Positions 8,979 to 11,493 of a DNA stretch of 20,106 nt are shown here, piece after piece. Source of the DNA: Actinomycetota bacterium (GTDB taxonomy: Bacteria; Actinomycetota; Thermoleophilia; Gaiellales; Gaiellaceae); contig JACDBY010000035.1 of the NCBI GenBank assembly GCA_013694685.1, positions 1-20,106 of the forward strand, in the 5' to 3' direction. The notes under the pieces were generated by a model, which saw only the letters and a program-made list of their open reading frames with translations, had not been told where the DNA came from and did not search any database. Numbering within the stretch: position 1 is the stretch's first letter; each line of letters opens with the position of its first letter. Made by a program: the position numbers and the translations under genes.

Positions 8979-10334
8979 TCACGTGACCGCCCGCATGAGC
9001 TCGGCCACGCGGAACGCGAGGTCGAGCGACTGGCGGGCGTTGAGCCGCGGGTCGCAGAGCGTCTCATAGCGATGGTCGAGCTGCTCCTCGCGCACCTCCT
9101 CGGAACCGCCGAGGCATTCGGTCACGTCCTCGGCGGTGATCTCGAGGTGGACGCCCCCCGGCCAGGTTCCGACCTCGCGGTGCGACGCGAAGAATCCCTC
9201 GATCTCGCGAAGAACATCGTCGAACCGGCGTGTCTTGTGCCCGGAAGGGGTCACGAAAGTGTTGGCATGCATCGGATCGCAGGCCCAGAGGACCGGGATC
9301 CCCGACTCCCGCACCGCGCGTGCGAGCGGCGGCAGCGCTTCGCGGACGCGATCCGCGCCGAGCCGGGTTACGAGCGTCAACCGGCCCGGTACACGAAGCG
9401 GGTTGAGCCGCTCGCAGAGCGCCACGACCTCGTCCGGCATCGCGGCAGGCCCGAGCTTCACGCCGACCGGGTTCTCGACACCCGCGAGGAACCCGACGTG
9501 GGCACCGTCGAGTTGGCGCGTTCGCTCGCCGCTCCAGAGGAAGTGCGCGGAGCACGCGTACCAGTCGCCGGTCGTCGAGTCGCGGCGAACGAGCGGCTCC
9601 TCATAGTCGAGGAGCAGCGCCTCGTGGCTCGTCCAGACGTCGACCTCGTGGATCGCCCGCTCATCGCCGAGGTCGATCCCGATCGCCTGCATGAACCGCA
9701 ACGCCCTACCGATCTCGTTCGCGATCACCGCGTACCGGCGCCCTTCCGGGGAGCTCGAGACGAACTCCTGGTTCCACGTCTGCACCTGTGTCAGGTCCGC
9801 GAAGCCGCCCTTCGTGAACGCGCGGAGCAGGTTCAGCGTGGACACGGCCTGGTAGTACGCCTGCACCATCCGCTCGGGATCGGGAACTCGCGCAGCCGCG
9901 TCGGGCTCGTCCGAATGGATCGCGTGACCGCGAAACGACGGCAGCTCGACTCCGCCGACACGCTCTGTCGACGAGGTGCGGGGCTTCGTGAACTGACCCG
10001 CGATCCGCCCCACCTTGACGACCGGCAGCGTGGCGCCGTACGTCAGCACGGCGGACATCTGCAGGAGCACCTTGAGCCGCTCGCGGATCGCGACCGCCGA
10101 GACGTCACGGAACGACTCGGCGCAGTCGCCTGCCTGGAGGAGGAAGGCGCGGCCCTCGACGGCCTCGCCGAGCGCCCGCGTGAGCGCTCTGGCCTCGCCC
10201 GCGAAAACGAGCGGCGGCAGCTGACCCAGTCTCTGCCGCACCGACTCCGCGGCCGCAGGATCGGGCCAGTCCGGCTGTTGCAGCGCCGGAAGCGAGCGCC
10301 ACGAGGAGGGGATCCAGGGGTCGGCCACGGCCAT
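8979..10334 (-). CDS. Class II 3-deoxy-D-arabino-heptulosonate 7-phosphate (DAHP) synthase
   Basis: First enzyme of the shikimate pathway, joining phosphoenolpyruvate and erythrose-4-phosphate. At 451 residues it has the size and motifs of the plant/mycobacterial (class II) type: QAGDCAE (Cys71, metal ligand), SAHFLWSGERTR, GPAAMPDE, CDPMHANT (His ligand; the family more often has MHGNT), LEITAEDVTECLGG (Glu) and CDPRLNARQS (Asp). It heads the minus-strand aromatic block and diverges from trpS across 175 nt. The ATG has no Shine-Dalgarno sequence but TAGAGT lies 6 nt upstream, so translation from a leaderless message is likely. Symbols aroG, aroF and aroH are all in use for this type, so none is assigned. 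Confidence 0.95.
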   Translation of the reverse strand: MAVADPWIPSSWRSLPALQQPDWPDPAAAESVRQRLGQLPPLVFAGEARALTRALGEAVEGRAFLLQAGDCAESFRDVSAVAIRERLKVLLQMSAVLTYGATLPVVKVGRIAGQFTKPRTSSTERVGGVELPSFRGHAIHSDEPDAAARVPDPERMVQAYYQAVSTLNLLRAFTKGGFADLTQVQTWNQEFVSSSPEGRRYAVIANEIGRALRFMQAIGIDLGDERAIHEVDVWTSHEALLLDYEEPLVRRDSTTGDWYACSAHFLWSGERTRQLDGAHVGFLAGVENPVGVKLGPAAMPDEVVALCERLNPLRVPGRLTLVTRLGADRVREALPPLARAVRESGIPVLWACDPMHANTFVTPSGHKTRRFDDVLREIEGFFASHREVGTWPGGVHLEITAEDVTECLGGSEEVREEQLDHRYETLCDPRLNARQSLDLAFRVAELMRAVT

Positions 10335-10340
10335 GGAGGC

Positions 10341-10346
10341 ACTCTA
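10341..10346 (-). promoter_or_regulatory. Putative -10 element for the leaderless DAHP synthase gene
   Basis: Minus strand TAGAGT, 6 nt, ATG. Its position 14 nt from the plus-strand -35 of trpS makes this a compact divergent promoter region. Confidence 0.5.
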
Positions 10347-10359
10347 GCCCCGGGGAATT

Positions 10360-10388
10360 TTGACGCCCCGCGCCGAAACAGCTACAAG
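10360..10388 (+). promoter_or_regulatory. Sigma-70-like promoter of the trpS leader
   Basis: TTGACG (10360-10365), 17-nt spacer, TACAAG (10383-10388; TACAAGAT to 10390). Transcription would begin near 10395, at or beside the ATG of the leader ORF at 10396, making the leader ORF leaderless. This is the best -35/-10 pair noticed in the window. Confidence 0.6.
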
Positions 10389-10395
10389 ATCAGGT

Positions 10396-10473
10396 ATGCA
10401 CGGCCTCGACCGCCTGTCGCTCTACTGGCGCCCTCCCGCGCCCATGCACACCCGCGGTCGAAAGCGCCCCTGA
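10396..10473 (+). CDS. Putative trpS leader peptide (25 codons, one Trp codon)
   Basis: An ATG frame of 25 codons starts about one base from the predicted transcription start and ends with TGA directly before the hairpin that covers the trpS ribosome site. Codons 10-16 read YWRPPAP: a single TGG at 10426-10428 followed by a Pro-Pro pair. The Trp codon lies between RNA segments 1 and 2 of the proposed attenuator. No Shine-Dalgarno sequence is needed if translation is leaderless. A single Trp codon could occur by chance; placement relative to the pairing segments is the main argument that the ORF is real. Confidence 0.5.
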   Translation: MHGLDRLSLYWRPPAPMHTRGRKRP

Positions 10474-10504
10474 GTCCTTTCGGCCGCGAAGCGGACGAAA
10501 GGAC
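10406..10504 (+). promoter_or_regulatory. Candidate ribosome-controlled attenuator of trpS translation
   Basis: Four segments can pair in competing ways. Segment 1 (10406-10413) pairs with segment 2 (10454-10461) over 8 bp. Segment 2 (10453-10464) pairs with segment 3 (10477-10488) over 12 bp including one G-U. Segment 3 (10474-10487) pairs with segment 4 (10491-10504) in 13 of 14 positions around a GAA loop. Segment 4 contains AAAGGA, the trpS ribosome site. A ribosome waiting at the leader Trp codon would block segment 1, allow 2:3 and free the site; a ribosome reaching the leader stop would cover segment 2 and let 3:4 close. There is no U-tract after 3:4, so control of translation is more likely than transcription termination. 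Confidence 0.6.
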
Positions 10505-10509
10505 GAATC

Positions 10510-11493
10510 GTGAGGATCTTCTCGGGCATCCAGCCCACCGGCGACAAGCACCTCGGCAACTACATCGGCGGGTTCCGCCAGTACGCAAAGACGCAGGAGC
10601 TCGGCGAGGCGTTCTTCTGCATCGTCGACCTCCACTCGATCACGGTCGAGCACGATCCGCGCGACCTGTACGAGCGCACGCTCGACCTCTACGCCATGCT
10701 CCTCGCGGCGGGGCTCGACCCGAATCGCTCGACGGTGTTCGTCCAGAGTCACGTCACTGCGCACGCGGAGGCCAGCTGGCTGCTCTCGGCGGTGACGAGC
10801 TTCGGACAGCTCGGCAGGATGACGCAGTTCAAGGAGAAGGGGGACGTCCGCGAGTTCGTCTCGGCGGGTCTCTTCACGTACCCCGTCCTGATGGCGGGCG
10901 ACATCCTGCTCTACCGCACCGATCGGGTTCCGATCGGCGACGACCAGCGTCAGCACCTCGAGCTCGCACGCGACGTCGCCGAGCGGTTCAACTCGCGGTT
11001 CGGGGAGACGTTCGTCGTGCCCGAAGGGATCTACCCGGAGGTCGGCGCACGGATCATGGATCTCCAGGAGACGACCCGGAAGATGTCGACGACGGGCGGC
11101 ACGGAGCAGGGCACCGTGAAGCTCCTCGACGAGCCGGACGTCATCCGCAAGAAGTTCCGCTTGGCCGTGACCGACTCGGGTCGTGAGATCCGCCGGGCCG
11201 CCGACAAGCCCGGCGTCTCCAATCTGGTGGACATCCTCGCAGTCGCGACCGACTGCACGCCCGCGGAGGTCGAGACTGCCTACGAGGGCAAGGGTTACGG
11301 CGATCTCAAGACCGACGTCGGCGACGCGGTCGTGGCCTTCGTCACGCCCGTGCGCGAGCGCTATCTCGAGCTGCGCGGCGACGAGCCCGAGCTCCGGCGC
11401 CTCCTCGCAGGGGGCGCAGAGAAGGCCGAGACCGAGGCCGCGCCGACGCTCGCCGCCATGTACGAGCGCATGGGGTTCGTCGCACGGGGGTAG
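10510..11493 (+). CDS. trpS: Tryptophanyl-tRNA synthetase
   Basis: Charges tRNA-Trp. The GTG start (327 residues) follows AAAGGA with 6-nt spacing and the protein begins directly with the catalytic fold: PTGDKHLGNY (9-18, HIGH-type), VLMAGDILLY (126-135), GDDQRQH (143-149) and KMSTT (191-195, KMSKS-type), all in bacterial TrpRS order. It diverges from the DAHP synthase gene, and its ribosome site is buried in a leader hairpin, suggesting control by charged tRNA-Trp level. Only one TrpRS is seen in the window. Confidence 0.97.
   Translation: MRIFSGIQPTGDKHLGNYIGGFRQYAKTQELGEAFFCIVDLHSITVEHDPRDLYERTLDLYAMLLAAGLDPNRSTVFVQSHVTAHAEASWLLSAVTSFGQLGRMTQFKEKGDVREFVSAGLFTYPVLMAGDILLYRTDRVPIGDDQRQHLELARDVAERFNSRFGETFVVPEGIYPEVGARIMDLQETTRKMSTTGGTEQGTVKLLDEPDVIRKKFRLAVTDSGREIRRAADKPGVSNLVDILAVATDCTPAEVETAYEGKGYGDLKTDVGDAVVAFVTPVRERYLELRGDEPELRRLLAGGAEKAETEAAPTLAAMYERMGFVARG

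Follow-up and report, generated by a model that had tools for sequence, protein, structure and literature searches.

The window, a 20,106-nt stretch of DNA from a Gaiella-like MAG, carries trpS, the gene for tryptophanyl-tRNA synthetase (TrpRS), behind a promoter, a short leader ORF and a hairpin holding the trpS ribosome site (Table 1). This gene is the sole TrpRS match in the window genome, as its counterpart is in each of the seven genomes of the genus. A preliminary description of the locus had reported the promoter, a 25-codon ORF that contains a single Trp codon, and a stop codon touching a hairpin paired at 13 of 14 positions, and we found each of these where it had been placed, with 17 nt between the two promoter elements and the stop abutting the hairpin (10474–10504). 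A mechanical promoter scan of the window listed no promoter; the scan requires T at the last −10 position, which is G here. Given the distance of the −10 element from the ATG, which is conserved in the genus, the leader ORF would be leaderless if the promoter assignment is right. One Trp among 24 codons is unremarkable alone (P = 0.16), so the weight of this codon lies in its conservation and not in its mere presence. On the other side of the promoter, a divergent minus-strand gene (8979–10334), which we take, by eye, to encode a class II DAHP synthase, has TAGAGT 6 nt before its ATG (window positions 10332–10346) and may therefore be leaderless too.

Table 1. Features of the trpS leader region, numbered by position in the window
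Feature	Position	Strand	Remarks
−35 element, TTGACG	10360–10365	+	Within TTTTGACGC, which is invariant in all five aligned genus loci
−10 element, TACAAG	10383–10388	+	7 nt ahead of leader ATG; GCTAnA invariant in all five aligned loci
Leader ORF, MHGLDRLSLYWRPPAPMHTRGRKRP (stop included)	10396–10473	+	25 codons; ATG at 10396, stop 10471–10473; related ORFs in L002, L003/L032 and L009
Single Trp codon (codon 11)	10426–10428	+	TGG in four of five aligned leaders; CGG in L010
Segment 1	10406–10413	+	Pairs with 10454–10461 (8 bp, −15.0 kcal/mol, p = 0.04)
Segment 2	10453–10464	+	Forms a 12-bp helix with segment 3 that leaves the stop codon in its loop; 11-bp counterpart in L002
Segment 3	10474–10488	+	5' arm of the ribosome-site hairpin; 10477–10488 pairs with segment 2
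Segment 4	10491–10504	+	3' arm; carries Shine-Dalgarno AAAGGA (10498–10503); CGAAAGGA invariant in all five aligned loci
trpS, tryptophanyl-tRNA synthetase	10510–11493	+	GTG start

The 1:2, 2:3 and 3:4 pairings originally drawn between the four segments are all real in the sequence. The ribosome-site hairpin has 9 bp and 4 bp on either side of one G.A mismatch and is closed by a GAA loop (−22.5 kcal/mol), the 2:3 helix (10453–10464 with 10477–10488) includes one G-U pair (−20.1), and the minimum free energy fold of 10394–10530 combines 1:2 with 3:4 (z = −2.46). The match between segments 2 and 3 exceeds that in dinucleotide shuffles (p = 0.0002) and in random codons (p = 0.015) and is within chance when the same peptide is recoded synonymously (p = 0.23), so that much of it stems from the encoded peptide. 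A T-box, a trp leader or any other Rfam element was considered and set aside, as the window and 20 related loci gave no match above the gathering cut-off; the search at E ≤ 5 returned one irrelevant match, below its own cut-off.

To describe how ribosome position might act on this region, we calculated an opening cost, the free energy to open the Shine-Dalgarno, with the ribosome edge set 12 nt beyond the first base of the A-site codon; all such predictions are from equilibrium folding of MAG sequences. In the window (L001), the cost is 6.7 kcal/mol without a ribosome, 2.4 kcal/mol with a ribosome at the Trp codon, 3.6–4.1 kcal/mol at codons 12–16 and 8.4–10.4 kcal/mol at codons 17–23, before falling to 5.0 kcal/mol at codon 24, 2.9 kcal/mol at codon 25 and 3.2 kcal/mol at the stop. 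When the sequence between Trp and stop was shuffled 300 times, no shuffle matched either the value at the Trp position or its contrast with codon 22. Equilibrium folding thus predicts that the position of the ribosome selects between two hairpins that exclude each other, one of which hides the ribosome site while the other leaves it accessible. The mean unpaired probability of AGGA is 0.00 in the free RNA; a ribosome at codon 8 raises it to 0.52, one at codon 9 or 10 to 0.12, one at the Trp codon to 0.23 and one at the stop to 0.75. With maxima at codon 8 and at the stop, opening spans positions around and before Trp as well as the stop, and is thus broader than the Trp codon; Trp would matter to the switch if a ribosome waits there.

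On balance, we lean towards the reading that this leader is a ribosome-mediated attenuator with the trpS ribosome site as its output. The RNA would begin at or next to the leader ATG, a start that we infer from the promoter spacing, and the ribosome would load on it leaderless. With ample charged tRNA-Trp, the ribosome would clear codon 11 and cover segment 2, leaving segment 3 to pair with segment 4 and the Shine-Dalgarno buried. When charged tRNA-Trp is scarce, the ribosome would instead wait at the Trp codon on segment 1, and segment 2, being free, would take segment 3, so that the Shine-Dalgarno would be exposed more often and more TrpRS would be made. RNA that is not translated would be held closed by 1:2 together with 3:4.

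Within the genus, the leader peptide is better conserved than the stems. Four of the seven genomes have a Trp codon in a leaderless-looking ORF, within the motif L(F/Y)WR (MHGLDRLSLYWRPPAP.. in the window, MSGIDRHCLFWRPAP.. in G004, MSELHRLGLFWRR in G003 and MPSLNLLGLFWRA in G001). One more, G002 (L010), keeps the ORF with CGG in place of TGG, and the remaining two have no such leader: none was found before trpS in G005, and in G006 (L006) the shared promoter, −35 element included, stands directly before trpS. In terms of loci, L004 and L006 are those whose trpS upstream region lacks the leader. The relatives thus keep a Trp-bearing ORF in four of the five leader loci, and the loss of both ORF and stems that would have told against the preliminary description did not appear; the conservation it expected of the stems held up less well. 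The hairpin occurs with 9 + 4 bp in the window and, lengthened to 11 + 4 bp, in G004, and is absent in the window's form from the other three leader-bearing genus loci. L003 and L009 keep the peptide and not the window's stems, and the full 1:2/2:3/3:4 set recurs only in L002, in weaker form. As for the earlier suggestion that the Pro-Pro after Trp could itself pause ribosomes, Trp-Arg is found in all four genus Trp leaders and Pro-Pro in the window alone, which weakens this alternative, and we rejected Pro-Pro as a conserved pause signal.

The predicted behaviour of the relatives differs accordingly from locus to locus. In L002, where the ribosome-position switch is weaker, the site stays closed at Trp (7.5 kcal/mol), costs 13.7–15.2 kcal/mol to open with the ribosome over segment 2, 2.5 at the stop and 10.5 in free RNA. 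Folding gave no such switch in L003 and L009: the cost in L003 is 1.0–1.4 kcal/mol under a ribosome and 1.9 free, with no change from Trp to stop, and in L009 it is 1.1–1.2 kcal/mol under any ribosome from Trp to stop and 6.2 free, so that in this model the L009 site is opened by leader translation as such, whatever the Trp supply. The attenuator logic first proposed for the locus therefore applies, as a prediction, to the window, extends to L002 in direction only and is not found elsewhere in the genus. These values also bear on translational coupling, in which leader translation ending at the hairpin would pull the 5' arm open and hand over to trpS, with Trp playing little or an indirect part. 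The behaviour of L009 is what coupling would give, the stop abuts the hairpin in both L001 and L002 with a cost at the stop of 3.2 and 2.5 kcal/mol, and the ORF of L010, which has no Trp, still reaches to 20 nt before trpS. Yet 73 and 77 nt separate trpS from the leader stops of L003 and L009, whose leaders nonetheless keep LFWR, and Trp is the feature common to leaders across the family; we consider coupling rather unlikely as the main mode of control.

Support for the proposed attenuator also comes from the wider family. A scan for short ORFs starting 5–9 nt after a −10-like hexamer, run on 162 non-redundant regions upstream of trpS, yielded 25 loci, 23 of them with Trp (one, L171, doubtful) and 17 with two or three Trp codons. 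The 22 leaders other than L171 are leaderless-looking short ORFs with Trp codons (one in the window, one to three in relatives), and the hexamer lies 6–9 nt from the start in the leaders found. In the 135 loci compared with shuffled sequence (60 rounds; the 27 outgroup loci L083–L107, L109 and L110 set aside), Trp leaders numbered 23 against a shuffled mean of 0.5 and maximum of 3, and leaders with two or more Trp numbered 17 against a mean of 0.1, using a relaxed −10 set (TACAAG, TACAAA, TAAACA) that was chosen after the genus sequences were known. The strict TANNNT pattern gave 19 leaders with at least one Trp and 17 with at least two, against 0.8 and 0.2. Among 40 upstream regions outside the family, in the most distant of which the trpS start may be misplaced, the sole candidate was L171, a doubtful ORF with a TTG start. 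By eye, the leaders sort into group A (the genus, one Trp), group B (WSWRRGRGGALR type), group C (WWW followed by a GC hairpin and TTTT) and group D (W.W..RGGSLR type). In L006 and L111, the trpS ATG follows a −10-like hexamer by 8–10 nt, so that the gene itself appears to be leaderless there, and it seems that the leader was lost or never inserted. In L008, the frame preceding trpS runs straight into it and ends in a stretch with QFHPES, presumably a glutamine amidotransferase-like motif.

On a TrpS tree, which leaves out 21 loci without a long enough protein, three leader-bearing ones included, the leader trait occupies 19 of 76 rows and needs at least 11 changes, six of them forced by well-supported branches; the trait is nevertheless clustered, since none of 500 shuffles was as low. 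Such patchiness, together with the missing Trp of L010 and the missing leaders of L004 and L006, is what would be expected of a relic, that is, a leader descended from a Trp attenuator that no longer regulates, its hairpin setting a constitutively low translation rate. We find this quite improbable for the window, as its switch contrast was unmatched in 300 shuffles, and the promoter and Shine-Dalgarno are invariant, and Trp kept in four of five, among the genus leaders. Taken together, the leader ORF, the conserved Trp codon, the Trp leaders of the family and the predicted window switch lend partial support to the original reading of the locus, in which charged tRNA-Trp would control TrpRS synthesis; the presence of no more than one Trp codon, the narrow distribution of the stems and the broad range of opening positions count against it.

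Sister leaders show related pairings in which the end of the ORF, beyond the last Trp, binds the sequence that follows the stop codon. This helix is 13 bp long in six of seven group B loci; L118 has 10 bp, with C-G in place of an A-U pair, and L056 a different helix of 13 bp. It measures 12 bp in the window and 11 bp in L002. As long GC-rich stretches pair regardless, gapped duplex energies were mostly uninformative against shuffles (the own 3' side was best in only 5 of 16 leaders) and were discarded in favour of the contiguous helix. By that test, 10 of 16 leaders pair better with their own 3' side than with that of any other group, and L001 and L002 tie with each other. For L007, L013, L019 and L062, between 2 and 9 of 15 do as well as the own side or better; the best helix is within chance (p 0.075–0.29) in these four and in L079 and L133. 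Since the group B hairpin around the stop begins 4 nt after the last Trp codon, it could correspond to 1:2 and not to 2:3. The switch modelling covered loci with a recognised ribosome site, which L118 and the four group C loci lack. In group B, the predicted cost at the first Trp is below that at most later codons in L035, L044, L119 and L166, the signal is weak or mixed in L040 and L050, and L056 shows no opening change ahead of the stop. Group D has a flat or slightly falling unpaired probability except in L019, which goes in the opposite direction and opens further past Trp, from 0.11 at the first Trp codon up to 0.60. In the predicted folds of L035, L044, L050, L166, L009 and L010, the ribosome site of trpS can be bound by the ORF 5' end (for example TTCGCCTC and CCTTCGCTC), a pairing that may act as a second lock.

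The genus also has Trp leaders before another gene. A trpE-like gene (PF04715) is present in six of the seven genus genomes and was not found in the incomplete G000; trpA (PF00290) is likewise present in six and was not found in G003. Trp-rich, leaderless-looking leaders, such as MPPVTHTWAWSWRGERGGSVR and MTFARDLGWWRHGRCGSVR, precede five of the six trpE-like genes (L258, L259, L260, L262 and L263), with GC hairpins and runs of at least four T behind them, and G004 has no Trp leader within 330 nt upstream of its copy. Together with the GC hairpins and T-runs of the group C trpS leaders, they invite an explanation by transcription attenuation, in which the hairpin, or Rho, would halt RNA polymerase before trpS, here without a U-tract, as proposed for Streptomyces trpS and as is likely before trpE in this genus. 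The two hairpins described for Streptomyces lividans trpL2 (PMC8079986) also lack a uridine-rich stretch. In the window, however, no T-run follows 10504, no terminator-like site is listed, so that the intrinsic terminator with U-tract of a trp-type transcription attenuator is absent, and the 3' arm of the hairpin is the ribosome site itself; termination as the output at this locus is therefore unlikely. The trpE leaders resemble, by eye, the trpS leaders of other genera (groups C and D), so the two attenuators may share ancestry. As a tentative reading, to which we would give somewhat less than an even chance, the genus may use a leaderless Trp leader for two outputs, termination before trpE and ribosome-site exposure before the sole trpS, where a single Trp codon would tune synthetase translation; the trpS leader of the family would then be shared with the trpE attenuator and have been repeatedly lost or re-tooled.

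If the attenuator reading is true, a single sensing codon suffices for trp-type attenuation to govern how an essential synthetase with only one gene copy is translated, and a leader ORF can do without its own ribosome site. The family would then provide a natural series, from terminator type through ribosome-site type to loss, along which a change of output can be followed, and a likely Trp-responsive circuit would be added for a deeply branching group of actinobacteria known here mostly from MAGs.

Control of trpS by a leader is known already; trpS1 of Streptomyces coelicolor, an example that the preliminary description also gives, is under transcription attenuation. Leaderless cysteine attenuators of mycobacteria, which Canestrari et al. 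reportedly described in 2020, are likewise leaderless short ORFs answering one amino acid, with a different amino acid and different genes. In the translational attenuation of erm genes, a subject of PMC5118997, a stalled ribosome similarly frees an inhibitory stem-loop before the gene, although the stall is caused by an antibiotic and not, as proposed here, by missing charged tRNA. Among the matches listed from the open-licence literature, Gaiella or Thermoleophilia were not joined with leader peptides or attenuators.

Closer parallels are found in other Actinobacteria, for which trp attenuators have been described, with a candidate before trpS2 of Streptomyces avermitilis (Seliverstov et al., 2005; PMC1262725); Thermoleophilia are not named among the attenuators in the portion of that article consulted. 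These share with the window Trp codons in a short ORF and alternative hairpins, but the trp-operon attenuators in that portion have two or three UGG codons and U-tract terminators, which the window lacks. In a Streptomyces-like genus, we found leaderless-looking Trp leaders before 17 of 20 sampled second trpS copies (L238–L257; 13 of WWAA or WWPA type, four of WRSS type) and before none of the 30 best-matching copies (L208–L237). Six second-copy leaders were folded; all six are followed by a GC hairpin, and two of them by a run of five T. None of 396 genomes matched a wide DNA pattern for the tail of the S. lividans peptide. The nearest counterpart is S. lividans trpL2 before trpS, whose leader peptide MMTRTCTQLWRAA has one Trp, is reported as leaderless from mapped starts and is followed by the two hairpins through which termination has been proposed (PMC8079986). 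The window shares the one-Trp leader before trpS, which looks leaderless here, and the lack of a uridine-rich stretch, and is therefore a variant of a known control, not a new kind; it differs in that the ribosome site would move where termination is proposed in S. lividans, and what would be new is this ribosome-site output on a trpS that is the sole copy.
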